Of a stretch of DNA of 39,340 nucleotides, positions 9,314 to 36,836 are shown in pieces. The position numbers and the translations under genes are program-made. Source of the DNA: Lachnospiraceae bacterium (GTDB lineage: Bacteria; Bacillota; Clostridia; Lachnospirales; Lachnospiraceae). The notes beneath the pieces are model-generated. The model did not search any database. It saw nothing but the letters and a program-made list of their open reading frames with translations, and had not been told where the DNA came from. The stretch spans positions 1 to 39,340 of the forward strand of contig JAETRI010000032.1 in NCBI GenBank assembly GCA_021770245.1, given 5' to 3'. Numbering within the stretch: the stretch's first letter is position 1; every line of letters begins with the position of its first letter.

Positions 9314-9325
9314 AAGATTTACAGC

Positions 9326-9349
9326 GCCGCCGGTCGATCGGCCGGCGGC
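9326..9349 (+). terminator. Hairpin between fliD and fliS
   Basis: GCCGCCGG (9326-9333) pairs with CCGGCGGC (9342-9349), with GATC in the loop, followed by AGCTTTTGG. The T-run is short, so it may act as a partial terminator or RNA-stability hairpin that sets fliD and fliS levels apart. Confidence 0.45.
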
Positions 9350-9405
9350 AGCTTTTGGATGTAAGACAGGACTGTATTCGTCGAGTTTATGAAGGAAGGG
9401 ATTAA

Positions 9406-9810
9406 ATGAGCGGATATAATCATTATAAGGAACAGAGCATCTATTCCATGTCAGGGGCGGAGCAGCTATTGCTGCTGTTCGATGAAGCGATCAGGCGGTT
9501 AGCCAGAGCCGAACTTTCCCTGGAGGATAAAAATTATAAGGATTTCGAAGATTGTGTGACAAGGGCGAGCAGGATCGTCCGCTATTTAATCGATATTCTG
9601 GATATGGAACAGCCGATCAGCCATGATTTAAGAAGGATTTATAATTATCTTGTCTATGATCTGAGCCTGGTAAAAGCCGGAAGGGAACGGAGGAAGGACG
9701 AGATAGGGCGGATCAGGCATATCCTTTCGGAATTGCGGGAAGCTTTCTTTGAAGCCAGCAAAAAGGTAAATGATATGCATGTGGTCAAAGAAGCCGTGGT
9801 CAGGGGATAG
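9406..9810 (+). CDS. fliS: Flagellin export chaperone FliS
   Basis: A 134-residue helical protein. FliS binds the C-terminus of flagellin in the cytoplasm, prevents premature polymerisation and delivers it to the export gate. The sequence has the family pattern: a short N-terminal stretch, EQLLLLFDEAIRRL (first helix), an IVRYLIDILDME segment, then RRIYNYLVYDLSLVKAG (later helices). The ATG is preceded by GAAGGAAGGGA. It lies between fliD and a small chaperone-like gene, as in other Firmicutes. In Bacillus, FliS also acts with FliW and CsrA in flagellin homeostasis, and both partners are encoded nearby. Confidence 0.92.
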   Translation: MSGYNHYKEQSIYSMSGAEQLLLLFDEAIRRLARAELSLEDKNYKDFEDCVTRASRIVRYLIDILDMEQPISHDLRRIYNYLVYDLSLVKAGRERRKDEIGRIRHILSELREAFFEASKKVNDMHVVKEAVVRG

Positions 9811-9861
9811 ACGTATGATTTTTCCGGTGCGTTTTCCCGAAGGGATAGGAGTGTGGCACGG

Positions 9862-10293
9862 ATGGAACTGGATTTAACAAAGGTTATGATCCTTCTCCAG
9901 AGAAGATATGGGGCGGTGAGGGAAATTCACAGGCTGACAAAGGAGCTGGGAGAGGCCTTCGAGAGAAACGATGAGGTATCCGCGTCCATGCTTCTTCAGA
10001 TGCGGGCAGACGAGATGGAGAGAGCGGATGTCTGTCTCAATCAGATCTGGGAGATGGGAGAGACGAACCGCGGGTATCAGGAAAAGCTGTGTACTCTTAT
10101 GCGGTCCGATCCGAAGGAAGCGGTCGGAGACAGTCCGGAGGAGAAAAAGATTTATGAGATCCGGCAGAAGATTTGGGAGATGGCAGAGGAGCTGCGCGGT
10201 ATCGATCAGAGGATGAGCCAGAACGTGGCCAGAGAAAAATCCTTTTATAAAACAAAAGCAGAGCAGCAGGAAAATCTTTCGCTACAGGCTTGA
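9862..10293 (+). CDS. Small helical protein after fliS, FliT-like
   Basis: 143 residues, strongly helical and charged, with heptad-like spacing throughout, no membrane segment and no signal peptide. It occupies the fliT position after fliD-fliS; FliT chaperones FliD and is also a small helical protein, but sequence similarity is too weak to name it. The ATG at 9862 is ten bases from an AGGAG, while the in-frame GTG at 9853 is only one base from it, so the ATG is preferred. Best guess is a flagellar export chaperone; a FlgN-like role is the alternative, but a separate FlgN lies at 16071. Confidence 0.65.
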   Translation: MELDLTKVMILLQRRYGAVREIHRLTKELGEAFERNDEVSASMLLQMRADEMERADVCLNQIWEMGETNRGYQEKLCTLMRSDPKEAVGDSPEEKKIYEIRQKIWEMAEELRGIDQRMSQNVAREKSFYKTKAEQQENLSLQA

Positions 10294-10321
10294 AACGATT
10301 GTCGGACAAAGAGAGAGATTT

Positions 10322-11494
10322 ATGAATCAATTATTATTTGAAGGACGTACCCTGGTGGGAATCGTATCATCGATTATCCGCCAGGATTCTGTGCGTGTTG
10401 TATACAATCGCCTTGATTGGGAAAAAATGTACCGCATTGCGGATTACCATAACGTTGCCAATATAGTTTATCTCGGTGTTCTGGGTAAGGGAGATGTCCT
10501 GCCTGAGAAATGGCGGGATCGTTTTTTTGAACGCTATCAGGAGGCGCTGAAGTTTGGTGAGAACTACGAGGAATCCTTCAAAGAAGTATTGACATGGCTG
10601 GATATGAGAAAAATCTCATGCACCGTCTTAACCTCCCCCACTGTCCGGGATTATTATAAGATTTCAGAGGCGGCAGGGAACAGTGTCCTCCAGATCCTTT
10701 TGGACGGGGAGCAGTATTATCTGGCCAGGGGATATTTGATTGATCTGGGATATGAGGTGGATCAGATTTATGAGGGATATGGGGAGCGCCTGACGAAATG
10801 GACAGGGATATCGGTGGCGCTGTACCATAAGCTCCCTTTCCGGACGCTGGCCTATGCCCGCGGCATGACCCGTCTGCTGGAGACGGCGGTCATAAAAGAA
10901 CCCTATCAGAATATACGAGTGCTGCCTTTGGAAAGCGAATTCCTGTTTCGGATGGCCAGGGCAGTATACCGTTATGCGACGGACGAACTGACTCTGAGGG
11001 AAGTGCTGGATCTGTTCCTCTGCCATCAGGCATGGCGTGACGAGATGGATAGGGAGAGGCTGCGGAAACGATTGGCTGATTTTTTTATTGACGGATTGGC
11101 CGGGAAGCTTCTTCGTATTTCCTATATGTGGTTCGGGGATAAAAAGGACGATTATTTCACCGACAGCCCGGAAGATATGGGGGTATACGATGTGTTGGAG
11201 GACCGGCTTTTGACAAAGGGCATCGTGAATAACGAGACGGATCCTCAGGCGCTTCGGCTCCAGAAAATGATCCAGAGGGAAATCGAAAAGGAAAGGCGAA
11301 GGGAAGAGAGAAAGCAGTTTACCAAGCGTCTGGAAGGATGGCAGGAGGAGATAAAGAAAAAATGGAAATGGCTTTTCCCCGACTATCATTATATGGCGTC
11401 CATTTATCCGACAGTGGAAAGAATACCGCTCCTTCTTCCGATTTTTTGGCTGCTGCGATGCGTGAGAATGTTATGGAGAACGGTATTTAGATAA
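10322..11494 (+). CDS. Degenerate nucleotidyltransferase-fold protein
   Basis: 390 residues. The region from about residue 30 to 250 follows the layout of the uncharacterised nucleotidyltransferase family NTP_transf_5: an opening helix region (ADYHNVANIVYLGVL), a long helix pair, a hydrophobic strand (ISCTVLTSPTVRDYY), and the domain that normally carries a GD(I/L)D metal site followed by a 'GY' strand. Here the site reads GNSVLQILLDGE, so the paired catalytic aspartates appear lost. The C-terminus is a basic charged helix (KMIQREIEKERRREERKQ) and a hydrophobic end. It directly follows the fliS operon genes and may serve flagellin modification or be a non-catalytic relative. Family assignment is moderate, function unknown. 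Confidence 0.55.
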   Translation: MNQLLFEGRTLVGIVSSIIRQDSVRVVYNRLDWEKMYRIADYHNVANIVYLGVLGKGDVLPEKWRDRFFERYQEALKFGENYEESFKEVLTWLDMRKISCTVLTSPTVRDYYKISEAAGNSVLQILLDGEQYYLARGYLIDLGYEVDQIYEGYGERLTKWTGISVALYHKLPFRTLAYARGMTRLLETAVIKEPYQNIRVLPLESEFLFRMARAVYRYATDELTLREVLDLFLCHQAWRDEMDRERLRKRLADFFIDGLAGKLLRISYMWFGDKKDDYFTDSPEDMGVYDVLEDRLLTKGIVNNETDPQALRLQKMIQREIEKERRREERKQFTKRLEGWQEEIKKKWKWLFPDYHYMASIYPTVERIPLLLPIFWLLRCVRMLWRTVFR

Positions 11495-24149: not shown

Positions 24150-24255
24150 CTATAGCCTTTTCTTATAGGAATGTTCCAGCATCTGGATAACCTGGTAAAG
24201 TGCCATGGCGATGACGCACAGGATCAGAATGGAGGTAATTACCATGTTCAGCTGG
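24150..24255 (-). pseudogene. 3' fragment of the split ABC permease
   Basis: On the minus strand, from the junction at 24255, the frame reads QLNMVITSILILCVIAMALY and then a short charged end to the stop at 24150-24152. This is the last transmembrane segment and cytoplasmic tail expected of an SsuC/TauC-type permease. The 5' part at 33441-34147 ends exactly where this segment is missing. Joined at the AA core, the parts give 813 bases in frame, a 270-residue permease. A start and ribosome site of its own are absent. Confidence 0.82.
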
Positions 24256-24279
24256 AAGAGATGGGCGGCGTGAATGATA
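24256..24279. other. Left attachment site (core AA plus element arm)
   Basis: Core AA at 24256-24257, then a 22-base element arm 24258-24279 (GAGATGGGCGGCG followed by TGAATGATA). Its reverse complement agrees with the right-hand arm 33419-33440 at 16 of 22 positions. Left of the core is permease sequence. Confidence 0.75.
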
Positions 24280-24375
24280 AAAGGGCATATCCCTTGATTT
24301 GAGAGCGGAAAGAAGATATATTATCACTAAAGGGAAGACTTGTATTGGGACAGGTGGCGGGAGGAGAGGCGGATT

Positions 24376-25374
24376 ATGGCGAGGTCTGTAAGCATAGGAC
24401 GTCAGGACTTTGAAAAGATCAGGCTCAACGACAATTTTTATATAGATAAAACGGACTTCATCAGGCAGTGGTGGGAAGAGGGGGATGATGTAACATTGAT
24501 CACCCATATGATACGCCCATGCAGGAGGCTTATGTGGGCGAGTACTGGGAGGAATTGGCGGCGTTTACAAGGAACTTATTTGGCGCAGCCTTCAAGACAA
24601 ACCTGTATATGGAGCGTGCGTTAATGACCGGTATCACCAGAGTAAGCAAAGAATCCATGTTTTCCGACCTGAATAATCTGGAAGTGGTGACAACGACTTC
24701 GGAAAAATATGCGGACAGTTTTGGGTTCACGGAAAAGGAGGTATTTGCGGCACTGGAGGAATATGGACTGACAGGGCAAAAACAGCAGGTCAAGTACTGG
24801 TATGATGGTTTCACTTTCGGCAGCAGGACGGATATTTATAATCCCTGGTCTATCATTAACTTCCTGGACAAGGGATATGGTGCGCAGTTGGTTTGAAGGT
24901 CCCTCTTCCAACTATAATGATTTTATCAAGGCGTTGCCGGTGGGGGATGTGGAGGCGATGAATACCTATATGAACCGGGTGGCACGGGAGATGTTTAGCT
25001 ATTTCGACACAGGTACGAATCCATACAGGGAACCGGAGCGGTTCTACCATGGTTTCGTACTGGGGCTGATGGTGGAATTGTCCGACCGGTATACGGTCAC
25101 TTCCAACCGGAAAAGCGGCTTTTGCAGATACGATGTCATGTTAGAACCAAGGGAGGCATCCAGGGATGATGCCGTTATTCTGGAATTTAAGGTACAGGGT
25201 ACAAAAGAAAAGGAGCTGTCGGATACGGTATCCGCTGCCCTGCGGCAGATTAAGGAGAAGGATTATCAGGCATCTCTGGCGGCAAAGGGGAGCCCTGAAG
25301 AACGGATACGGAAATATGGGTTCGCGTTTTGTGGGAAAGAGGTGTTGATCGCGCGGAGGAGACGTGCATCATAA
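24376..25374 (+). pseudogene. AAA-ATPase-like/PD-(D/E)XK nuclease gene with two internal deletions
   Basis: The start (MARSVSIGRQDFEKIRLNDN, then FYIDKTDFIRQWW and DDVTLIT) and later parts (MQEAYVGEYWEELAAF; WYDGFTFG...YNPWSIINFLDKG; SWFEG...YNDFIKALPVGD; RFYHGFVLGLMVEL; RYDVMLEPRE; ILEFKVQG) belong to the AAA-ATPase-like/DUF1703 family, normally about 550 residues. The P-loop region that should follow TLIT is gone: reading jumps at about 24500 into another frame at YDTPMQEA. A second deletion and frameshift occurs near 24878, after FLDKG. The final nuclease-like domain, including ILEF.V, is otherwise well kept. The gene is dead as a full protein. The 283 bases after it hold a hairpin described separately. 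Confidence 0.85.
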
Positions 25375-25519
25375 AGGAAAACGATAAAACGCCAATGGAC
25401 ACTTGGCACATCAGATGTCGAGTCGGAGGCTGCTGCCGCGAAAATTGGGATAAATGGCATGGAACCCCAAAACAGCTTGCCCTGTTCCACGGGTTCGATG
25501 CATCAAAATTGCGAGTCTT

Positions 25520-25560
25520 CTTATTGACCGAGTTATTTTAAATTTAATCAGGTCAATAAG
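25520..25560 (+). terminator. Hairpin after the nuclease pseudogene
   Basis: CTTATTGACC (25520-25529) is the exact complement of GGTCAATAAG (25551-25560). GAGGCATTTTTT follows, so the T-run is five bases from the stem. It may be a weak terminator; the arm contains TATTGACCG, which recurs near merR. Confidence 0.45.
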
Positions 25561-25657
25561 GAGGCATTTTTTATTGGAATTTTGAAAGTGCCTATTGACC
25601 GGGCAGGTAGACTTTCCTGATGAAAGCGGAAGAACCCCTGCCGTAAAATGATCCTGC

Positions 25658-26482
25658 TTACCCGGTAATGGGGATTTCAATCTGCACAATATAATCCTCA
25701 ATCCGGTCAATGACATTTTCATTAATGCCCATTTCATAGGAAAATCCATGGAGATTCAATTTATGCTCTTTTGCATAACCAAGAATTTCCTGATACCGCT
25801 TTGGGATTCCATCCCATTCCCCTTTGTGGAAGGCTCGCAGATATTTTCCGCTAGGCATGATATGCAGGCCGGCCTGATAGGGGAGGAAAGGGATTTCAAT
25901 GAAAAGTTTGGAATAATTTTCAAAATTGCCGTTTAGCAGGCTGTTAACGGAGATCATGGAACCATAGGAAGCTTTATGCAGGCGTCCAAGCCGGTATTTT
26001 TCGGTCTCAGCGGTGATCAGCTCCACTTCCTGTTCAAAGGAGGTATTTTGGTCTACATCCACGGTGACCAGGCAGTGTTCCTCTTTTTCAACGATACTGA
26101 TTTCTGATAAGTCCATGGTCAGTAGAGTGTCCATATTCTGGTAATGCGTACATAAAGTTGTCCGGACTGCCTGCAGATGGGTGATCTGCATGTCAAGGGC
26201 TGTTATCTTTTTCTCCAGAAGGCCCTTTAAACTGGAAGCGGATCGGTTTTTCATGAAGTCCTGTATTTCATTGATGGACACATCCAGTTCCCGCAGCAGC
26301 AGGATGGTTTCGAGGACAGGGCTTTGGTAGTAATTATAACAGCGGTATCCGTTTTCGGGGTTGATGGCAGCCGGTTTGAACAGCCCGATCTCATCATACC
26401 ACATAAGAGTCTTTTTATTGATGCCGTGCATGGCTGCGAACTGGCCGATTGTGAGAAGCTTGTCTTTCTTATTCATAGTCAT
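25658..26482 (-). CDS. MerR-family regulator with GyrI-like effector domain
   Basis: 274 residues. The N-terminal winged helix matches MerR proteins: LLTIGQFAAMHGINKKTLMWYDEIGLFKPA and NGYRCYNYYQ. A linking helix dimer segment (about 75-120) follows, then a GyrI/BmrR-like ligand-binding domain (about 125-274), as in multidrug-sensing MerR activators. It is divergent from a MATE exporter and shares a promoter with a 19-base spacer and central dyad, so it most likely senses a toxic compound and activates the exporter. The ATG at 26482 is used; ATG 26476 is also possible, and neither has a strong ribosome site. Confidence 0.88.
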   Translation of the reverse strand: MTMNKKDKLLTIGQFAAMHGINKKTLMWYDEIGLFKPAAINPENGYRCYNYYQSPVLETILLLRELDVSINEIQDFMKNRSASSLKGLLEKKITALDMQITHLQAVRTTLCTHYQNMDTLLTMDLSEISIVEKEEHCLVTVDVDQNTSFEQEVELITAETEKYRLGRLHKASYGSMISVNSLLNGNFENYSKLFIEIPFLPYQAGLHIMPSGKYLRAFHKGEWDGIPKRYQEILGYAKEHKLNLHGFSYEMGINENVIDRIEDYIVQIEIPITG

Positions 26483-26507
26483 CTCATCAAATATTTTATA
26501 AATTGTA

Positions 26508-26538
26508 TTGACCGAACAGTTACTGTATGGTTTATGCT
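26508..26538 (+). promoter_or_regulatory. MerR-type promoter and operator for the MATE exporter
   Basis: TTGACC (26508-26513) and TATGCT (26533-26538) are 19 bases apart, the overlong spacing typical of MerR-activated promoters. The spacer carries a dyad centred on T26521: ACC-GA-ACAGT-T-ACTGT-AT-GGT (26511-26531). It should be the binding site of the divergent MerR protein. Confidence 0.8.
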
Positions 26539-26582
26539 ATCATACACAGGAAATAAATACAAGATGAATGGAGAAAAAATTT

Positions 26583-27914
26583 ATGGAAAACTCGAATGTA
26601 TATGAAAAGCCTGTAACGCTAAAAAACATCCTGAAATTTGCCATACCTACCATTGCGATGACAGTGTTTATGTCTTTTTACACAATGGTAGACGGTCTGT
26701 TTGTGTCGAACCTGATCGGGACAGACGCTCTCTCGGCAATCAATCTGACGGCACCGATTATTCAGCTCGTGACGGCTATCTCTACCATGCTTGCCACTGG
26801 AGGAAGCGCAGTCATCATGAAAAAGATGGGTGAGCAGAAAACGGATGAGGCAAAGGAAGATTTTACGTTTCTGATTTTGGTAAATGTCATTGTGGGGATT
26901 GTCATGTGCGTGGTTGGGTATCTGGCAATGGATCATATTTTTGCCGGTATGAACCTTTCCGCTGATGTGGGAGGGTATTGTGTGGAATATTTAAGCCATT
27001 ATCTGGTGTTCACGGTGCCGATCCTTCTGATGAATAATTTCACGCTTTATATGATTGCCAGTGAAAAGGCCAACCTTTCCCTGGTCTGCTCTGTGACAGG
27101 CGGTGTCCTTAATATGGTGCTTGACTATGTGTTTATTGCCGGATTCGATATGGGGATCAGCGGGGCGGCGATTGCGACAGGGATGGGATATTCCGTGACA
27201 GCGGTTGTTGGATTGTTTGTTTTCAGCCGGAAAAGGAGCCTGCTTCATTTCAAAAAGCCCGTGTTCCGATTCAAGGTTCTTGCGAGTGCGGCTGCAAACG
27301 GATGCTCGGAGATGGCGACTGCGCTTGTTACCGGAATCATTACAATGATGTTTAACTGGACGATACTTACGTATGTCGGGGAAGATGGGGTTGCGGCTGT
27401 TACCATTATCATGTATGTGCTGATGTTTGCAAGCTCTTTATATACAGGGTATTCTTACGGGGTTGCTCCCATGCTGAGTTTTTATTATGGGGAGCAGAAC
27501 CATGTAAAATTAAAAAAGCTCATTGCGTTGAGCATGAGGGTGATTGCAGTGATCTCTGTGGTAACGGTTGCGGCTTCTTTTATGCTGACAAGGCCGCTGG
27601 TATCCGTATTTGCCCGGCCGGATAATCCGGTGTATAATTTGGCAGTAACAGGAAACAGGATATGCACGGCAGCATTGTTCTTTATCGGATTCAATATTTT
27701 TGCCAGCGGGATGTTTACCGCATTATCCAACGGGATTGTTTCGGCTGTCCTTGCATTTTCCAGATCGTTTGTATTTATGCTGATCACGATGATCGTGCTT
27801 CCGATTATTTTAGGTGTGAATGGAATCTGGCTGGCAACGCCTGCAGCGGAACTGATGGCGCTTGTATTGTCCGTGTTTATGTTCTTAAAATATAGGAAGA
27901 GGTACGGCTACTAA
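26583..27914 (+). CDS. MATE-family multidrug exporter
   Basis: A 443-residue membrane protein with about 12 hydrophobic segments and the MATE pattern: NILKFAIPTIAMTVFMSFYTMVDGLFVS at the start, NLTAPIIQL, and a second half beginning near residue 225. It should export cationic drugs or metabolites using a Na+ or H+ gradient. The ATG at 26583 is preceded by GGAG nine bases upstream; ATG 26568, five codons earlier in frame, is an alternative. It is divergent from the MerR gene and overlaps the ribosome site of the next gene, which starts 11 bases after its stop. Confidence 0.9.
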   Translation: MENSNVYEKPVTLKNILKFAIPTIAMTVFMSFYTMVDGLFVSNLIGTDALSAINLTAPIIQLVTAISTMLATGGSAVIMKKMGEQKTDEAKEDFTFLILVNVIVGIVMCVVGYLAMDHIFAGMNLSADVGGYCVEYLSHYLVFTVPILLMNNFTLYMIASEKANLSLVCSVTGGVLNMVLDYVFIAGFDMGISGAAIATGMGYSVTAVVGLFVFSRKRSLLHFKKPVFRFKVLASAAANGCSEMATALVTGIITMMFNWTILTYVGEDGVAAVTIIMYVLMFASSLYTGYSYGVAPMLSFYYGEQNHVKLKKLIALSMRVIAVISVVTVAASFMLTRPLVSVFARPDNPVYNLAVTGNRICTAALFFIGFNIFASGMFTALSNGIVSAVLAFSRSFVFMLITMIVLPIILGVNGIWLATPAAELMALVLSVFMFLKYRKRYGY

Positions 27915-27924
27915 GGAGGATGGA

Positions 27925-29214
27925 ATGAACTACACATTTTATGAACTTGCTATGCTCTTTTTTACCTATTCTTTTTTGGCGTGGCTTGCTGAGACAGCAG
28001 TTGCGACGGTAAAAGTAAGGAATTTCAGGAACCGTGGCTTTGCATCGGGGCCGTTTTGCTTCCTTTATGGGTTTACCGGGGTGATTTTGACTGTATTCCT
28101 GCAGGAGTTGAAAGGCGATGTGCTGTTCCTCTTTCTGGGAAGTATGGCGGTGGCTACTGCCGTGGAGTGGTTTGCAGGGAAAATACTGGAAAGGATGAAG
28201 CAGAAAAAGTGGTGGGATTATTCTGATAAAAGATGGAATTTTGACGGATATATCTGCTTACAGTATTCTGCGCTTTGGGGGCTGCTTGGATTCCTGGCTG
28301 TCCAATATGGGAACGGGATTATTTTAGGAGTTTACCACAGCCTGCCGGGCATTGTGGGAAAGGCAGCAATCTGGGGGCTTACGGCGGTGGGAGTGGCAGA
28401 TTTTATGGGTTCCCTCCTGTTTATCTGCCATATGGAGGAAAAACTGCCGCGGCTGCTTGGCTGGAACCATAAGCTGCAGAGATGGACATTCCGGTTTGCC
28501 ACAAAGGTTTCAGGACATATTGAAAAAAGAATAGGCAGGTCATACCCTGCTATCCTGCGGGAGAAGGAAGAAACGGTAAAGGATCGGGAACGGTGCGGTT
28601 TTGCACAGGTGTTCTGGCTGTTCCTGATCGGGGCTCTCGCGGGTGATATTGTGGAGACAATATTCTGCCGGGTTACGTCAGGTATTTGGATGAGCAGGAG
28701 CAGCCTTGTATGGGGGCCGTTCAGCGTGGTATGGGGGCTTGCGATTGCACTTGTGACGGTGCTGCTTTATAAAGACAGGGATAAACAGGAACACCATATC
28801 TTTTGGGTGGGCACTTTCCTTGGAGGGGCTTATGAATATATCTGCAGCGTTTTTACGGAGATGCTGTTTGGTAAAGTTTTCTGGGACTACAGCGCCATGC
28901 CCTTCAACCTTGGAGGAAGGATCAATCTGCTTTACTGTTTTTTCTGGGGGATTGCGGCAGTTGTATGGATCAAGGGGATTTATCCCAAAGCGGAACGGCT
29001 GATCGATATCATTTTAAAGAAAACCGGAGGGGTATTGACGGGAATACTGGTGGTGTTTATGGTGTTTAATATTCTCGTATCTGTACTTGCACTTGTCCGG
29101 TACGATACGCGGGCAGATGGAAAGGCCGCAGTATACAAATGGGAGCAGGCCATGGATGAACATTTTGATGATGTAAAAATGGAACGGATCTATCCAAACG
29201 CAATACGGCAGTAA
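27925..29214 (+). CDS. CmpB-like membrane protein with duplicated domain
   Basis: A 429-residue membrane protein annotated in relatives as 'putative ABC transporter permease' (ABC_trans_CmpB family). The domain occurs twice: residues about 1-160 (FFTYSFLAWLAETA; GFASGPFCFLYGFTG; DFDGYICLQYS-type loop, here NFDGYICLQYS) and about 210-360 (FWLFLIGALAGDIVETIF; SSLVWGPFSVVWGL; MPFNLGGRINLLYCFFWG). A further transmembrane segment lies near residue 380. No ATPase partner is adjacent. AAGGAGGA overlaps the MATE stop codon, so it is translationally coupled to the exporter and probably shares its regulation. Function unproven. Confidence 0.8.
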   Translation: MNYTFYELAMLFFTYSFLAWLAETAVATVKVRNFRNRGFASGPFCFLYGFTGVILTVFLQELKGDVLFLFLGSMAVATAVEWFAGKILERMKQKKWWDYSDKRWNFDGYICLQYSALWGLLGFLAVQYGNGIILGVYHSLPGIVGKAAIWGLTAVGVADFMGSLLFICHMEEKLPRLLGWNHKLQRWTFRFATKVSGHIEKRIGRSYPAILREKEETVKDRERCGFAQVFWLFLIGALAGDIVETIFCRVTSGIWMSRSSLVWGPFSVVWGLAIALVTVLLYKDRDKQEHHIFWVGTFLGGAYEYICSVFTEMLFGKVFWDYSAMPFNLGGRINLLYCFFWGIAAVVWIKGIYPKAERLIDIILKKTGGVLTGILVVFMVFNILVSVLALVRYDTRADGKAAVYKWEQAMDEHFDDVKMERIYPNAIRQ

Positions 29215-29244
29215 ATGAGGCCAGGCAAAGGGCAGGGAAAAGAA

Positions 29245-29430
29245 ATGGGGGCACAGCTTATTAGATTGGAGTTAACCGGTAGAATGCCTAATGCAGAATC
29301 AGATAGTTATTATGTCGTGCTTACGGACAATGAGAATTTAACTTTTGAAGATGTATCAAAAAGTCTGTATGGCAGTTTGCTTGAGGACAGTAAGATAATG
29401 GAAGGCTCTATTATTGTGGAAATGAAATAG
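29245..29430 (+). CDS. Small protein of unknown family
   Basis: 61 residues: MGAQLIRLELTGRMPNAESD, then YYVVLTDNENLTFEDVSKSL and a short end MEGSIIVEMK before TAG at 29428. It is mixed charge, without membrane segment. ATG 29245 follows GCAGGGAAAAGAA; the in-frame ATG at 29215 directly after the previous gene is less well placed. The same frame stays open after the TAG to 29934, so this could be the first part of a longer interrupted gene. Confidence 0.5.
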   Translation: MGAQLIRLELTGRMPNAESDSYYVVLTDNENLTFEDVSKSLYGSLLEDSKIMEGSIIVEMK

Positions 29431-29493
29431 CATCCATTTATCACCGAGTTAAATAAAACGATAAATTCAAATTTTTCTGCGGGTAAAAAGATT

Positions 29494-29934
29494 TTGATTT
29501 CCGGCTATCCTATGGTCAGACAGATGACCACGGGGGCCGGAAATTTTTTTAACCCACAAAAAATAATACGGCAAAATTTAAATAGCGTTTTCTGCGGCCT
29601 CCCTACACCCGATCATGATGTGATCCTTTATAGGGAATGTTTTGGCGAGGGCATCAGGGGCAGGCTTCCAATCAAGATTCTCCGTGTATTATTACTTAGG
29701 CACGAAAACGAAACGGGGAGAGATGTGCTTTTTGTCCAAGTAAAAAAAGTAACGGGAAAAAGACGTTTTTATATTGGGATACCGGTAAAAGTGAAAACCG
29801 CTGGATCAGAAGCGTATTTGAAAAAGCAGGTATATCGTTCGGATTTGGTGAGAAGAAAGAAACTGAAATTCAAAATTGAGGACCTTAAAGGTGAGCTTTC
29901 GGGAAAGGCAATGAATCTTCAAAGCAAAATATAA
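29494..29934 (+). CDS. Unknown basic protein, possible 3' part of an interrupted gene
   Basis: 146 residues if started at TTG 29494, or 140 from ATG 29512. It has GYPMVRQMTTGAGNFFNPQK and CGLPTPDHDVILYRECFGEG near the start and a lysine-rich end. No family was recognised. Neither start has a good ribosome site, and the frame continues upstream without a stop to the TAG at 29428 and on to 29245. The simplest reading is one gene of about 229 codons broken by an amber codon. Confidence 0.45.
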   Translation: MISGYPMVRQMTTGAGNFFNPQKIIRQNLNSVFCGLPTPDHDVILYRECFGEGIRGRLPIKILRVLLLRHENETGRDVLFVQVKKVTGKRRFYIGIPVKVKTAGSEAYLKKQVYRSDLVRRKKLKFKIEDLKGELSGKAMNLQSKI

Positions 29935-29994
29935 AAAAACGAGCATAAAATTTTGTTAAGAGGAATGCCCCGTATAAAAGAAAGGAACGGAAAT

Positions 29995-30120
29995 ATGTCA
30001 AAAGAAGATCAAAAAATCATGGAGCAAATTTCGAATATCCTGGTTCGTGAAAACGAAATTTCTTCGGAAGAGCAGTTGCGTATGCTGGATTTAATCAGGA
30101 AAGAGCGGCAAAGCAGATGA
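29995..30120 (+). CDS. Small charged protein before the recombinase
   Basis: 41 residues, MSKEDQKIMEQISNILVREN then EISSEEQLRMLDLIRKERQSR. It is helical and highly charged. The ATG has AAAGGAACGGAAAT upstream, a fair ribosome site. It lies 122 bases before the serine recombinase gene. Small proteins in this place can be recombination directionality factors or regulators, but no match was recognised. Confidence 0.5.
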   Translation: MSKEDQKIMEQISNILVRENEISSEEQLRMLDLIRKERQSR

Positions 30121-30242
30121 ACCGTTTCCCGGCCTGCTGTCTGCCGGATGGGGACGAATCAAAGGGAAACCACTTTGGCAGATAGCAGCCGCATGATTTA
30201 CAACGTACATATCCACAAGGCAGGGAGAAAGGAGGTGAAACC

Positions 30243-32117
30243 ATGGAAAAGCTGCGTGCAGTCATCTATAACCGCTGCAGTACGGAAGAAGAATCACAGA
30301 AGGATGCCCTTGTTAAGCAGATACAGGAATCAAAGAACTGTGTTTTCGAGCAGGGGTGGGAGCTGGTCGATGCTTATGTAGAGGCAAAGAGCGGAACTAC
30401 GGTGAAAGGGCGGAATGAATATAACCGGCTTTATCAGGATCTCGGGAGTGATAAATTCGACATTATCGTCATCAAAAGCCAGGACCGGCTTATGCGGAAC
30501 ACGAAGGACTGGTATCTGTTCCTTGACCGGATGCAGAAAAACCGGAAACGGCTGTTCATGTACCTTGAACATAAGTTTTATACGCCGGACGATGCGCTTA
30601 TCACCGGGATCAAGGCTATCCTCGCGGAAGAATACAGCCGGGAACTGAGCAAAAAGATCAACAATGCCCATAAAAACCGGCAGAGGGAAGGAAAACGGTT
30701 TGTGTTCACAAACCAGACATACGGTTATAAGAAGCTTCCGGATAAGAGTATTGCGATAGACGAAAGGGAAGCGGAGATGATCCGGATGATTTTTAACCTT
30801 TCGGCGAACGGCTATGGAACGCACTGCAGCGCGGAAATCCTATACCGGAACGGATACAGAAACCATAACGGGAAAAAGCTCAGTCCTTCCCTGATCAGGA
30901 ATATCATCAGGAATCCGATCTATAAAGGAACCATTGTCCAGAATCGGCAGCACTACGATTTTGAGAGCAAACAGGTCTGCAAAAATCCGCCCTCGGAATG
31001 GCTTTTCCATGAAAATGCCGTCCCCCCGATTGTGGACGACGAACTGTTTGAGGAGGCTAACCGGGGGCTGGACATAAGGAAACAGGACGGAAGCCGGGGA
31101 GGTAAATATCCAAAGGGGAGCAGTCCCGGGAAATATGACCTTTCGGGTAAACTATACTGCGGGCTGTGCGGAAGCCCTTTTTACCGCACCGTCAGGCAGA
31201 ACAAGGATGGGAAGGTAACGGAATGGAAATGCAGTAATTATCTCCAAAATGGCCGGAAGGAAGCGCAGCTGCGCAGAGATCGGGTTAGGAAGGTAGAGAA
31301 GGAGGAGGGTACCGGCTGCGATAACGTACATCTTGATGAAAAGAAGCTCTATGAGGCGCTGGAACAGCTTTGCCGCCGGAAATATCAGGGGCTTGGAATG
31401 CGGAAGGATGACCTGCTTAGGGAAACATTGGCAATATTGCGCAAAGCCTTAAACGGAAATGATATATCCGCAAAAAAGGCAGGGCTGGAAAATACGCTGG
31501 ATAAAATCAACAGACAAAAGGATACACTGCTGGAGAAATTGTTGGAAGGGGTTATTTCCGATGGGGATTTTAAATTAAAAAGGGAGGAACTGGAAAGCAG
31601 GAAAGCGGAGATAGAAGGGGAACTCAGGCTTATGGAGGATAACCTTGTACAAAATGCAAGGCTGGAAGCCAGGATAGAATCCATCCGTGAAAAGCTGGAG
31701 GGCGGCGTTATAGAACAGGCACAGATAGCGGATATGGTGGGCAGCATCTCTAAGGTCGGAGTTTTCCCGGATCACATGGATGTGTATTTTGATTCATGGA
31801 CATTGATGGGGCTTCCGGCAGAAAGCGTTTCTTCTATTATAAGAAGTGAGACTGACAAACTTACGGTGATCCGTATCCCACAGGTGTGCAGCACTTCCCA
31901 CCGACCCATGGTTGAGGCGGAAAAGGAAAGGATATTGAGTATCATGGCCGGAAATCCCAGAACCACGGCTAAGGCGATTGCAGAGGAAATGGGAATCCAT
32001 CTTTCCCTTGTACACAGAAGGATACGGGAACTGAAAAGGGAAGGGAAGATCAGATACAGTCCCCCCAACGGAAAGGGAAAGTGGCAGATACTGGTTTCCT
32101 TACCGGATCACTCTTGA
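30243..32117 (+). CDS. Large serine recombinase (integrase of the element)
   Basis: 624 residues. The N-terminal resolvase domain begins with AVIYNRCSTEEES, with Ser13 as the catalytic nucleophile, and has QDRLMRN. A recombinase domain (about 150-260: QTYGYKKLPD, IFNLSANGYG, IRNPIYKGT) follows, then a zinc ribbon (LYCGLCGSPF...WKCSNY...GCDNVHL) and a long coiled coil (about 400-490). The far C-terminus carries a winged-helix-like segment (TAKAIAEEMGIHLSLVHRRIRELKREG) not always found in this family. It catalyses site-specific integration and excision of DNA between short att sites with a 2-bp core, which fits the element ends seen here. AAAGGAGGTG precedes the ATG. Confidence 0.93.
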   Translation: MEKLRAVIYNRCSTEEESQKDALVKQIQESKNCVFEQGWELVDAYVEAKSGTTVKGRNEYNRLYQDLGSDKFDIIVIKSQDRLMRNTKDWYLFLDRMQKNRKRLFMYLEHKFYTPDDALITGIKAILAEEYSRELSKKINNAHKNRQREGKRFVFTNQTYGYKKLPDKSIAIDEREAEMIRMIFNLSANGYGTHCSAEILYRNGYRNHNGKKLSPSLIRNIIRNPIYKGTIVQNRQHYDFESKQVCKNPPSEWLFHENAVPPIVDDELFEEANRGLDIRKQDGSRGGKYPKGSSPGKYDLSGKLYCGLCGSPFYRTVRQNKDGKVTEWKCSNYLQNGRKEAQLRRDRVRKVEKEEGTGCDNVHLDEKKLYEALEQLCRRKYQGLGMRKDDLLRETLAILRKALNGNDISAKKAGLENTLDKINRQKDTLLEKLLEGVISDGDFKLKREELESRKAEIEGELRLMEDNLVQNARLEARIESIREKLEGGVIEQAQIADMVGSISKVGVFPDHMDVYFDSWTLMGLPAESVSSIIRSETDKLTVIRIPQVCSTSHRPMVEAEKERILSIMAGNPRTTAKAIAEEMGIHLSLVHRRIRELKREGKIRYSPPNGKGKWQILVSLPDHS

Positions 32118-32296
32118 TATTGTGAGTAGTTATAAGATATAATTAAGTCAATCCAATGTCCGGCATTTGTTTGGCGGGCTTTTGGATTGATGAAGTGCTT
32201 TATGCCGACGGATGTCTAGGGAAAGGCAGCTTATGGCAAGGACGGACAGTGCATCGCTTAAGTCCCAATCATCCGGTATAGAGAAGCGGTGAATAT

Positions 32297-32550
32297 ATGA
32301 TTAGAAGATTACAAAATACAGATACTAAACAGGTCATGCAAATATGGCTGAATGGAAATAGGGAAGCGCACCCCTTTGTTCCGAAAGAGTTTTGGGAATC
32401 AAATTTTGAGATGGTTCAGCTGCCGCATTTTATTTTAGAGAGGGCTTTTCGGTACTATCAGAAGGACATGATGAAGCTACGGGGGAAAGCGAATATACGA
32501 TGATTTGGAAAGCAGACAATGTGGCTGAAGTATCGGAGAAAGATGGATGA
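32297..32550 (+). pseudogene. GNAT acetyltransferase with internal deletion
   Basis: The N-terminus MIRRLQNTDTKQVMQIWLNG, then EAHPFVPKEFWESNFEMVQ is the start of a GNAT-family acetyltransferase. At about 32430 the sequence jumps to the family's end in another frame: FREGFSVLSEGHDEATGESE then YTMIWK, stopping at 32548-32550. About 70 residues, including the acetyl-CoA binding motif, are missing. The original frame stops at 32503. This gene is inactive. The 180 bases between the recombinase and this gene hold a loose inverted repeat (32148-32156 with 32182-32190) and nothing else recognised. Confidence 0.82.
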
Positions 32551-32565
32551 CTGGGAAGGAAAAAG

Positions 32566-33399
32566 GTGGACATGGAAGAACAGATAATGGTTAATACCTC
32601 ATGGGAAGAGATTGGGATATCCAATGACTTCCTTTTTGGAAAAATCATGCAGCAGCCGGATCTCTGCGAAGAGCTGCTGCACAGGATCCTTCCGGATCTG
32701 GAGATAGACCATATAGAGTATCCGGAAGCACAAAAGGGGATAAAGCCTGATGTGGATGCAAAAAGTGTCAGGCTGGATGTATATGTTAAGGATGAAAAAG
32801 GAACAGTTTACGATATTGAGATGCAGGTGGCAGATACAAAAGAATTGCCGAAAAGGGCCAGGTATTATCAGAGTCTCATTGACCTGCAGCTCATAGATAG
32901 GGGGCAGGCCTATAAGAGGCTGAAGCCGGGTTACATTATATTTATCTGCCCGTTTGATATGTTCGACAGGGGGAGACATATTTATACCTTTGAAAATACC
33001 TGTCGTGAAGACAGGAGTCTTTTACTGGGAGACGGGATGACAAAAATTTTCCTGAATACGGACAGCGATATGAATGATGTCAGTAAAGAGCTGAAAGCAT
33101 TTCTGGATTATGTGTCAGGGAAAAAGTCAGATGACGATTTTGTGAAGAAATTAGAGGACGCCGTAAAAGAGGCGAAAAAGAACAGGGAATGGAGGCATGA
33201 ATATATGACATTATTAATGCGGGATCAGGAGAATATGGAAAAGGGAATGGAAAAGGGAATGGAGAAGGGAATGGAAAAGGGCATTTCGGGAATGGTGTCC
33301 ACGTTGAAAGATTTGGGAATCCCGGATGCAACCATTGTGCAGAAGCTTCAGGAAAAATTCAGCTTTAGCAGGGAAAAGGCGGAAAAGTATGTCAAATAA
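32566..33399 (+). CDS. Rpn-family PD-(D/E)XK nuclease
   Basis: 277 residues, similar to Rpn/YhgA-type recombination-promoting nucleases ('PD-(D/E)XK nuclease family transposase'). The core reads NDFLFGKIMQQPDLCEELL, then RLDVYVKDEKGTVYDIEMQV, where D and ExQ form the nuclease site, then RARYYQSLIDLQLIDRGQAY and IIFICPFDMFDRGRHIYTFE. The C-terminus has four EKGM repeats and a helical end. It starts with GTG at 32566, seven bases after GGGAAGG; ATG 32572 is an alternative. It is the last gene inside the element, ending 42 bases from the right core. Role in the element is unknown. Confidence 0.85.
   Translation: MDMEEQIMVNTSWEEIGISNDFLFGKIMQQPDLCEELLHRILPDLEIDHIEYPEAQKGIKPDVDAKSVRLDVYVKDEKGTVYDIEMQVADTKELPKRARYYQSLIDLQLIDRGQAYKRLKPGYIIFICPFDMFDRGRHIYTFENTCREDRSLLLGDGMTKIFLNTDSDMNDVSKELKAFLDYVSGKKSDDDFVKKLEDAVKEAKKNREWRHEYMTLLMRDQENMEKGMEKGMEKGMEKGISGMVSTLKDLGIPDATIVQKLQEKFSFSREKAEKYVK
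33235..33282 (+). repeat. Four 12-bp tandem repeats in the nuclease gene
   Basis: ATGGAAAAGGGA is repeated four times in frame with small changes (33235-33246, 33247-33258, 33259-33270, 33271-33282), encoding MEKG units. Such a run may gain or lose copies by slippage. Confidence 0.8.
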
Positions 33400-33418
33400 C
33401 TATTTTGATGCCTATTTC

Positions 33419-33442
33419 TATCATTGACGCCCATCAGCTAAA
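33419..33442. other. Right attachment site (element arm plus core AA)
   Basis: The 22-base arm at 33419-33440 (TATCATTGACGCC followed by CATCAGCTA) faces the core AA at 33441-33442. Right of the core is permease sequence TACCTGG. It mirrors the left arm around the core. Confidence 0.75.
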
Positions 33443-34147
33443 TACCTGGCTTCCATAGATGATCAGATAGCCCAGCCCCTTTCTGGCCGCCAGAAATTCG
33501 CCGATGATTACGCCCACCAGGGCCAGACCGATATTCACCTTCATGGTGCTTAAGATGATGGGCACACAGGAGGGCAGGACCACCTTGAACAGGGTATCTC
33601 TCCGGCTGCCGCCCAGGGTATAGATGAGCTTGATCTTCTCCGCATCCACCTGTTGAAACCCGGTGTAAAGATTAATGATGGCGCCGAAAAGCGCCACGGA
33701 AATACCTGCCACGATAATGGTATTCATACCGGTTCCCAGCCACACGATGAGAAGGGGGGCCAGGGCGGATTTGGGCAGGCTGTTGAGAACCACCAGATAG
33801 GGTTCCAGAACTTCGGAAAGCTTGGTGGAATACCATAGCAGGGTGGCGCATATCATGCTGATAAGAAAGACCAGCAGGAAGCTGGCGATGGTCTCGGCCA
33901 GGGTAACGCCGATATGGACGGCCAGGTCGTTTTTCTGCCAGAGAGTGAGCAGGCAGGCTGCTACCCTGGAGGGGCTGGAAAAGAAAAACGAGTCGATGAT
34001 TTTCCAATCCGCACAGAACTCCCACACCGCCAGAAAGGCGATGAGAAGGAACAGGCGCAGAAAGGCGATCATTCGGTGATGTCTGTGATGGGAAGCTTCA
34101 AACCGAAGCTGGGCGGCGGATAGGTTTTCTTTTTTATCACTCATCAT
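33434..34147 (-). pseudogene. 5' part of ABC permease, truncated by the element
   Basis: 237 codons of an SsuC/TauC/ThiX-type permease (nitrate/sulfonate/pyrimidine-precursor class) with several transmembrane segments. The class EAA loop region reads LGGSRRDTLFKVVLPSCVPI. It ends GLGYLIIYGSQVF and then Ser-stop, the last residues lying in element DNA (33434-33440). The normal last membrane helix is found at 24150-24255. GGAGG lies before the ATG; the start overlaps the ATPase stop. A permease lacking its last helix is probably non-functional, although a short truncated form may be made. No substrate-binding protein gene is present in the window. Confidence 0.88.
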
Positions 34148-34904
34148 TTAGTTCCTCCCATAGCATATTGAAATAATTCTGAAATTCCGGCGCGTTGCGT
34201 GCGGCGAGCACGGAGTCGTCCGGCAGGGTGAGGCGGATGGGAATTTCCCGCTTGACCCTGGCGGGTCTTTGCCCCAGGACGATTACCCGTTCCGCCAGGC
34301 TGATGGCCTCCGAGAGATCGTGGGTGATCAGAATGGCCGTTTTTCCGGCAGCCCGTATAATACGGCAGATATCGGAAGAAACATGCAGGCGTGTCTGATA
34401 GTCCAGGGCGGAAAAAGGTTCATCCAGAAGGAGGATATCCGGCTCCAAAGCCATGGTGCGCACCAGGGCGGCGCGTTGCTTCAGGCCGCCAGACAATTCG
34501 CTGGGCTTCTTATGCAGAAACGGAGTGAGTCCGTAATCCTCCACCATGTTAAGAACCCGTTCCTTCTTTTGGGCCGTAAGCTGGCCGTTGATTTCCAGAC
34601 CCAGTGTGACGTTGCGGTAGATATCGCGCCATTCGAAGAGATGGTCGTGCTGCAGCATGTAGCCGATGCCGGGTTTTGCGTCCTGGGGATCGTCGGTATA
34701 AAAGGTGATATCGCCGGATTCGGGACGCAGAAGGCCGGCAATGAGGGAGAGGATGGTGGATTTGCCGCAGCCGCTGGGGCCTACGATCGCCAGGAATTCT
34801 CCCGTCCGGACGCTGAAGGACACATTATCGAGCGCCTTTACTTCGCCGTTCAGGCTGTGATAGGAATAGGATATATTCTTCAGAGTCAGTATGGTATCAG
34901 CCAT
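34137..34904 (-). CDS. ABC transporter ATPase, nitrate/sulfonate class
   Basis: 255 residues with every ABC motif in order: Walker A GPSGCGKST, Q-loop region MLQHDHLFEW, signature LSGGLKQR, Walker B ILLLDEPFSALD and switch histidine ITHDLS. It matches the SsuB/TauB/ThiZ group that energises uptake of sulfonates, nitrate or thiamine precursors. ATG 34904 has GGAGG seven bases upstream; an open frame reaching 35090 has no ribosome site and no similarity. The permease gene begins inside its last codons, so they form an operon. With the permease split, this ATPase lacks its usual partner. Confidence 0.92.
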   Translation of the reverse strand: MADTILTLKNISYSYHSLNGEVKALDNVSFSVRTGEFLAIVGPSGCGKSTILSLIAGLLRPESGDITFYTDDPQDAKPGIGYMLQHDHLFEWRDIYRNVTLGLEINGQLTAQKKERVLNMVEDYGLTPFLHKKPSELSGGLKQRAALVRTMALEPDILLLDEPFSALDYQTRLHVSSDICRIIRAAGKTAILITHDLSEAISLAERVIVLGQRPARVKREIPIRLTLPDDSVLAARNAPEFQNYFNMLWEELNDE

Positions 34905-35002
34905 ATCAGTCCTCCATTCTGCTTCTGATGGGATGCAGATAACAGATAGCATGTGATATAAGATATCATATGAAAAAGAAGAAAATCCGTGCCTGATTCT
35001 GT

Positions 35003-35079
35003 CGGAACGAAAAGGGCCTGTCCGGCCTGTATGTGAATGAGGTCTGCTCCTGTTCCGATGAGAGAAGGTTCTGCAGACC
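35003..35079. repeat. Two short interleaved inverted repeats before the ABC operon
   Basis: CGGAAC (35003-35008) with GTTCCG (35052-35057), and GGTCTGC (35041-35047) with GCAGACC (35073-35079), overlap in A-B-A'-B' order. They lie in the 257-base leader region between azlD and the ABC ATPase. The arms are short and may be chance; no TPP or other known riboswitch was recognised in either direction. Confidence 0.35.
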
Positions 35080-35161
35080 CCGTCCGCCACTCCGTTTGGA
35101 ACGTCGGCCTGCGGGAACCATCGGGGACTGCTTAAGGAAGGATCCTTTTAGAAAGGTTGTT

Positions 35162-36350: not shown

Positions 36351-36608
36351 ATGAAAAGATTTTATTTGTTCTCAAAACCGGCAGAGAATTTTTTGAATAA
36401 AGGGGTTGATTTCATTTGAGAAATTTACCGCTATTTAAAAATGACAGGGGTATGGCGTACTTATCTAATATCAGAGCATGATGGATGGGTTACTTTTTTG
36501 TGACTGGGTTATAAAAAAGTGCCTTCTTTTTTTCTGAAAAATAACCCGATATAATAAAATTGCGAACAGGAAAAAAGGAACGCAAAATAAAAGATGGAGG
36601 TAAAAACT

Positions 36609-36836
36609 ATGGCGCTTTCAAATTTATCCAGATGGAGCAAGGCGGCGGCACCTGCTTCCGCATGTGGAGCCGGAGACAAGCCGGAAGAGAAACCTGCGGC
36701 GTGCGGTTCCGCCTGCGGAGCCGGAGACAAGCCGGAAGAGAAGCCTGCGGCATGCGGTTCTGCCTGCGGAGCCGGGGATAAGCCGGAAGAGAAGCCTGCG
36801 GCATGCGGTTCTGCCTGCGGAGCCGGGGATAAGTAG
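36609..36836 (+). CDS. Cys-rich ACG-repeat peptide, candidate modified-peptide precursor
   Basis: 75 residues: a leader-like start MALSNLSRWSKAAAPAS, then three 17-residue units (CGAGDKPEEKPAACGSA) and a final CGAGDK. Each unit carries two CG pairs, giving seven cysteines. It resembles ACG-repeat peptide precursors known from Clostridia that are thought to be modified by radical SAM enzymes; the family name is from memory and unverified. No maturase, protease or exporter of such a system was seen next to it. GGAGG lies eight bases before the ATG, which settles the start, and a strong terminator follows, so it is a free-standing and probably highly expressed gene. A cysteine-rich metal-binding role is the alternative. 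Confidence 0.75.
   Translation: MALSNLSRWSKAAAPASACGAGDKPEEKPAACGSACGAGDKPEEKPAACGSACGAGDKPEEKPAACGSACGAGDK
36663..36815 (+). repeat. Three 51-bp tandem repeats in the peptide gene
   Basis: Units at 36663-36713, 36714-36764 and 36765-36815, plus a partial fourth to 36833. Units 2 and 3 are almost identical, while unit 1 differs at a few third positions, suggesting that a recent duplication made the last copies. Confidence 0.85.

Follow-up and report, generated by a model that had tools for sequence, protein, structure and literature searches.

Crossover by serine integrases is conservative and takes place at a 2-bp core. In the staphylococcal cassette chromosomes (SCC/Ccr), cargo islands are borne by a large serine recombinase (LSR) to a single chromosomal site, rlmH. 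Sets of LSRs dedicated to one gene are a known kind. One conserved coding site, for example in a prolyl isomerase gene, can serve distantly related LSRs that fall into several clusters at 50% identity (PMC10083194). Integrases associated with dusA occupy one conserved site in a protein gene, where they bring in diverse islands whose excised circles were detected by PCR (PMC4482086), and related serine integrases of streptococcal integrative and mobilizable elements (IMEs) insert at one site in the dispensable rumA, disrupting it (PMC5704250). Here we describe a 39,340-nucleotide stretch of an Eisenbergiella-like draft genome (GCA_021770245.1, contig JAETRI010000032.1; the window), in which a 9.2-kb segment splits an ABC permease gene. 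This segment is very probably an integrated mobile element that carries its own LSR and used a TT dinucleotide of the permease gene as its attB.

The window element resembles SCC/Ccr in placing a cargo island with an LSR at a single chromosomal site, but its recombinase scores 94 bits against the NCBIfam CcrB cut-off of 900 (and 84 bits against the XisF cut-off of 375), and the gene entered is a permease gene rather than rlmH, which sets it outside SCC. As in the LSR families of PMC10083194, divergent LSRs are dedicated to one target gene; the main text of that paper does not contain the words permease or transporter, and the present permease may still be among the targets in its supplements. 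Our literature searches, which covered the main texts of open-licence papers, found no naming of this permease as an LSR target. The likeness to the dusA islands lies in the use of one integrase family, with the integrase as the only universal feature; those islands, however, employ tyrosine recombinases at the 5′ end of dusA in Proteobacteria, whereas the present ones employ serine recombinases near the 3′ end of a permease gene in Lachnospiraceae (PMC4482086). Related serine integrases that disrupt a gene at one site also define the rumA IMEs, but IMEs by definition carry mobilization functions, none of which was recognized in the window element (PMC5704250). Finally, a gene split by DNA that brings its own recombinase, and open to restoration by excision, is also known from sigK with its skin element (PMC5025042) and from spsM with SP-beta (PMC4191935); programmed excision is a feature of those systems but was not observed here, where the nearest relative (G011) lacks the element. 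Many natural alleles of a single attB, both cut and uncut, are available at this locus together with reconstructed attP sites for divergent LSRs, a resource for learning what determines LSR specificity and for delivering genes to Lachnospiraceae of the gut. The permease is moreover a transporter gene that mobile DNA interrupts repeatedly, and potentially reversibly; in annotation it would appear as no more than a truncated permease.

The split permease gene and its junctions

On the minus strand, an open ABC ATPase gene (34137–35090) is followed by a permease frame that ends early. The N-terminal part of the permease (33441–34147, minus strand) comprises codons 1–235 plus TT and contains the BPD_transp_1 domain; the truncated open reading frame (ORF) as read has 237 aa and ends in GSQVFS-stop. 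The absent end, FQLNMVITSILILCVIAMALYQVIQMLEHSYKKRL, lies in the same orientation at 24150–24255 (minus strand), where one base of the split codon is followed by the last 34 codons, including the lost hydrophobic segment, and by the stop at 24150. A TT dinucleotide, read as AA on the plus strand, is the core of both junctions and marks the center of attL at 33441–33442 and of attR at 24256–24257 (both minus strand). Fusing the two parts at this shared TT gives 813 bases, or 270 residues, with a single terminal stop. The first-pass annotation had proposed this break, its orientation, the in-frame join, the intact ATPase gene beside it and a 9.2-kb serine-recombinase element as the cause, and all of these proposals hold: the two TT cores lie 9,185 bases apart, an LSR lies between them, and the element proper (24258–33440) has a GC content of 45.6% vs 51.2% in the rest of the window.

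Related genomes contain the predicted excision product as an unbroken gene. A gapless alignment over 269 residues gives 91.8% identity between the fused permease and the uninterrupted 269-residue permease of a related species (G011, locus L033), and BLASTN comparison of the flanks with relatives shows homology abutting at 33441 and 24257 with an overlap of two T's only, as in L003. Relatives of the same genus in these searches included Eisenbergiella tayi DSM 26961, E. porci and Candidatus Eisenbergiella metagenome-assembled genomes (MAGs). The window comes from a draft of 237 contigs, a setting in which an assembly error, or a stray fragment of some other permease at 24150, could simulate a split gene. 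The break is nonetheless real and no assembly artefact, because records from cultured isolates show the identical break, among them those of E. tayi DSM 26961 and of the complete chromosome AP025573.1. A foreign origin of the fragment, which the first-pass annotation had named as one of two findings that would overturn it, is contradicted by the gapless full-length alignment to the G011 permease and by the host genome itself, in which only one permease match reaches E ≤ 1e-40. The chance that error or a second permease accounts for the locus is accordingly negligible.

In the mechanism that we favor, the LSR of the element would recombine an attP, consisting of two near-mirror arms around TT, with an attB formed by the TT in the codon after GSQV of a conserved NitT/TauT-type ABC permease gene. 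Integration would split the gene and strip off its last hydrophobic segment; because that segment is removed, transport is probably lost for as long as the element is resident. Excision would then rejoin the gene exactly. Related LSRs would use this single site across Lachnospiraceae, delivering cargo that ranges from metabolic operons and transporters to toxin-like or nuclease genes and, once, conjugation genes.

The recombinase, its attachment sites and their recurrence

The LSR of the window (30243–32117, plus strand; 624 aa) has the domain composition of its class, with Pfam matches above cut-off for Resolvase, Recombinase and zinc ribbon domains (residues 6–151, 175–277 and 300–375) and a C-terminal winged helix-turn-helix (HTH) domain (HTH_24). 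Near-mirror attP arms around a TT are the anatomy expected of serine integrases. In the window, TT is present at both ends with a 2-base homology overlap, and joining the element-side arms of attL (33411–33440, minus strand) and attR (24258–24287, minus strand) reconstructs an attP with 18/30 mirror matches, which equals the maximum obtained with shuffled arms (mean 11.5, sd 1.9, maximum 18). Over 13 elements the mean symmetry is 19.4/30 against the same shuffled distribution, with six of the 13 exceeding the shuffled maximum, nine reaching it and L145 scoring 26; arms taken from different elements give a mean of 13.5/30 and a maximum of 23. From this serine-integrase-like anatomy we infer that the element was inserted by its own LSR, which should also be able to remove it. 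The C-terminal winged-helix domain was found by Pfam in 8 of 11 LSRs scanned. A minimal element of 2.5 kb at the permease site (L173 in G387, 8265–10812) encodes an LSR of 504 aa without an HTH match, so site choice does not depend on the winged helix.

Interruption at this codon recurs. A species-level scan was restricted to the 80 best of 119 permease relatives; 74 of these were uncut across the site and six were cut exactly there, after the SQ(V/T)F codon: E. tayi, Ca. E. merdipullorum (on contig DWYY01000024.1, possibly foreign to its bin), the Lachnospiraceae MAG L062, isolate B91_16_CH_BP, CE91-St61 (a complete chromosome) and Dorea sp. D27. An LSR lies downstream in the insert in five of them, and the contig of the sixth stops within the insert. 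Among 397 sampled Lachnospiraceae genomes, 24, the source genome included, encode a related LSR (E ≤ 1e-100). It could be placed in 23 of these, and in 19 of the 23 (18/22 without the source genome) it sits at the permease site. The LSR and the permease N-terminal part share one contig in 16 of the 19; in G096 and G313 the LSR lies beside the permease C-terminal fragment, with the cut N-terminal part on another contig in G313 and not found in G096; and in G147, where the permease is cut, the LSR lies on a different contig, of 3 kb. The unplaceable genome, G383, has its LSR on a 4-kb contig, and its permease was not found. With identities down to ~42% among the LSRs at the permease site, divergent recombinases share one site of one gene.

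All sources together yielded 26 records cut at this codon, with elements of 2.3–40 kb where both ends were located: the window; G001, G004, G007:C120, G061, G062, G063 and G064 (G064 and G425 have the same coordinates and were counted once); G096 and G313; G147; MT836003.1; and G322, G235, G294, G152, G203, G216, G099, G303, G154, G148, G146, G414, G387 and G242. In IMG/VR, five LSR-related loci (36–44% identity) contained no permease piece at E < 0.01 in the DNA compared. LSR matches occurred in 370 phage records, all below 60% identity; among the 12 listed, MT836003.1 was followed and proved to be a cut permease locus. Among plasmid records, of which 264 matched, the 12 listed had identities of at most 36%. 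The MT836003.1 locus (L200, 7749–10898), deposited as a human faecal "Bacteriophage sp.", carries a 2.3-kb insert that interrupts its permease at this very codon, and only LSR residues 2–279 were matched in that insert.

Mobility and reversibility

The contents and phylogeny of the elements point to movement between hosts. Clustering of 111 ORFs from 13 fully compared elements yielded a single cluster spanning all 13, that of the LSR; the next commonest, an AAA-ATPase/PDDEXK_9 protein, occurs in 6/13 when fragments are counted and is a recurrent cargo of these elements. A Pfam scan of the other 12 elements (40 of 89 non-LSR ORFs) identified, among other products, a 2-oxoacid:ferredoxin oxidoreductase, AMP-binding enzymes and an SSF symporter in L139; a phosphotransferase system (PTS) permease with dehydrogenases in L141, with homologues in L140; FtsX proteins and a histidine kinase in L152; ParE in L144; and Fic in L145. 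In the LSR tree, the window groups with L062 (100/97) and L139 (99/97), and a clade of the three Eisenbergiella LSRs, a group picked after the identities had been seen, is rejected (p-AU 0.00018). On the tree of permeases, by contrast, the window falls among Eisenbergiella, paired with G011. L140 and L141 come from hosts whose permeases diverge by 1% (176 residues of the N-terminal part compared) and whose LSRs diverge by 23%. Permease-site LSRs do not form one clade in the LSR tree, where other-site or viral LSRs are interspersed. This conflict between LSR and host trees, together with the differing cargo, indicates that these are mobile elements sharing one attachment site across Lachnospiraceae.

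Several results weigh against this picture of site-specific mobile integration. Apart from the LSR and its like, no transfer gene was recognized among seven Pfam-scanned proteins of the window element. The LSRs of four family genomes (G106, G163, G314 and G305; 37–38% identity by tblastn) lie elsewhere while the permeases of these genomes are uncut, and a sample of 391 genomes of the class (E ≤ 1e-95) gave one match besides the source genome, G052 from another family, again with an uncut permease; the site preference therefore fails for some relatives. Arm symmetry is weak in L141 (14/30), L173 (15), L139 and L144 (both 16). The presence of TT at the identical place on both sides in all 13 elements with both ends in one locus is partly forced, because the ends were located via the permease Phe codon; signs of the junction independent of that procedure are the 2-base homology overlap in L003 and the base after TT on the left, which comes from the element (L150 has A there and L173 has G). 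Lastly, an empty site is absent from the source assembly at up to three mismatches, and no excision, circle or mixed population was observed.

The lack of a recognized transfer gene would also suit a fixed, one-way knockout, in which a now immobile island has settled in a dispensable gene. One cargo gene of the window element is broken, and the similar insert in MT836003.1 has an LSR matched over part of its length. Against this reading, the window encodes an uninterrupted LSR of full length, retains both att halves and shows no decay in either part of the permease gene; we regard a permanent knockout as unlikely, though worth keeping in view. At the G235 locus (L143, 13260–15372), the permease N- and C-terminal parts lie in opposite orientation beside an LSR of the permease-site set and an ATPase match was not found; this locus is rearranged and probably dead, with a lasting break.

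Since serine integrases cross over conservatively at the 2-bp core, precise excision of the integrated element would be expected to restore the permease gene exactly. This prospect had led the first-pass annotation to suggest a candidate natural phase switch of nutrient uptake. Such a switch could be regulated or stochastic: the element would depart in some cells or conditions and come back, as active lysogeny and the skin element exemplify, and a transporter lost only reversibly would be of benefit to the host. Exact in-frame restoration is indeed conceivable, and the gene parts look maintained: all 16 C-terminal fragments read are open to the stop, and the ratio of nonsynonymous to synonymous substitution rates (dN/dS) in comparisons with a cut locus (N-terminal part 0.016–0.088, C-terminal part 0.018–0.106 where computable) is about as low as in uncut pairs (0.00–0.084 and 0.036–0.33, respectively). 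At least six changes between cut and uncut states are required on a permease tree of 21 cut and nine chosen uncut loci, and a cut locus (G007:C120) and an uncut one (G008) share 94.3% DNA identity over 2,441 bases up to the junction. Low dN/dS is, however, equally expected if the insertions are recent, because most substitutions may then predate them. Cargo and recombinases differ among close hosts, the source assembly shows no mixed state, and the break in G235 looks lasting. A regulated phase switch is possible but improbable, and ordinary site-specific integration fits the family picture better. The same holds for its broadest form, a reversible off-switch throughout Lachnospiraceae in which this one permease gene would serve a whole LSR clade for docking, and recurrent docking and exact excision would toggle the transporter in gut populations and selection would preserve the gene during a temporary off state, with the winged-helix domain as a part that could link recombination to a cellular signal; we consider this a long shot. 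The two permease copies of G007 were entertained as alleles of one strain and rejected as such, given their 86.9% identity over 2.5 kb; judging from the sequences, one copy probably comes from another organism in the bin.

Element cargo and the transporter neighbourhood

Besides the LSR, the integrated element in the window encodes an Rpn-family PD-(D/E)XK nuclease/putative transposase (32566–33399, plus strand; PDDEXK_2, with TIGR01784 above its cut-off), a membrane protein with PF06541 (ABC_trans_CmpB; 27925–29214, plus strand), a MATE-family transporter (26568–27914, plus strand; Pfam MatE, under the NCBIfam cut-offs listed) and a MerR-type regulator (25658–26482, minus strand). The broken cargo gene, AAA-ATPase_like/PDDEXK_9 by Pfam and ORF clustering, lies at 24519–25374 (plus strand) in two overlapping pieces of 125 and 190 aa; unbroken versions of 546–572 aa occur in L062 (two copies), L113, L144 and L145. 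The Pfam-scanned proteins of the window element include no relaxase or conjugation genes, which places the element outside IMEs and integrative and conjugative elements (ICEs), and no phage structural genes (PHROGs was not searched). Relaxase, conjugation and phage structural families were likewise absent from the 40 Pfam-scanned ORFs of the 12 other elements. Larger elements occupy the same site in G414 (~36 kb), G148 (~40 kb) and G216 (28–30 kb). That of G148 looks like an ICE, because a TraG P-loop protein is encoded in it besides the coupling protein of a type IV secretion system (T4SS). At the end of the large element in G216, two attR-like permease C-terminal fragments (L217; G216:C73:188645 and 190680) lie ~2 kb apart, perhaps reflecting tandem accretion.

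The permease falls far under the cut-offs of the NCBIfam SaoP, TauC, SsuC and NtrB (NitT/TauT-type) models, and permease and ATPase together gave sub-cut-off matches only, among the models listed. It weakly matches the solved CmpB and nitrate permeases, in alignments that extend into the lost segment. The ATPase gene is present in 58 of 60 permease neighbourhoods, and two further genes, which we take to be argH and asd, occur in 51 and 43 of the 60. No substrate-binding-protein gene was seen among the neighbour clusters common to at least eight of these 60 loci, as read by eye. At gathering thresholds, Rfam gave no match in the window, and its matches in seven relatives were limited to one group II intron and three tRNAs; with no riboswitch in these scans, there is no RNA clue naming the substrate. 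The label "uptake system" given in the first-pass annotation is therefore tentative: the permease resembles NitT/TauT-type models, but no curated cut-off listed is reached and no binding-protein gene was seen among the shared neighbours. Farther along the window, a small cysteine-rich ORF (36594–36836) covers 3.5 copies of a 51-base tandem unit (36656–36833) repeating SACGAGDKPEEKPAACG, and its product looks like a repeat peptide.

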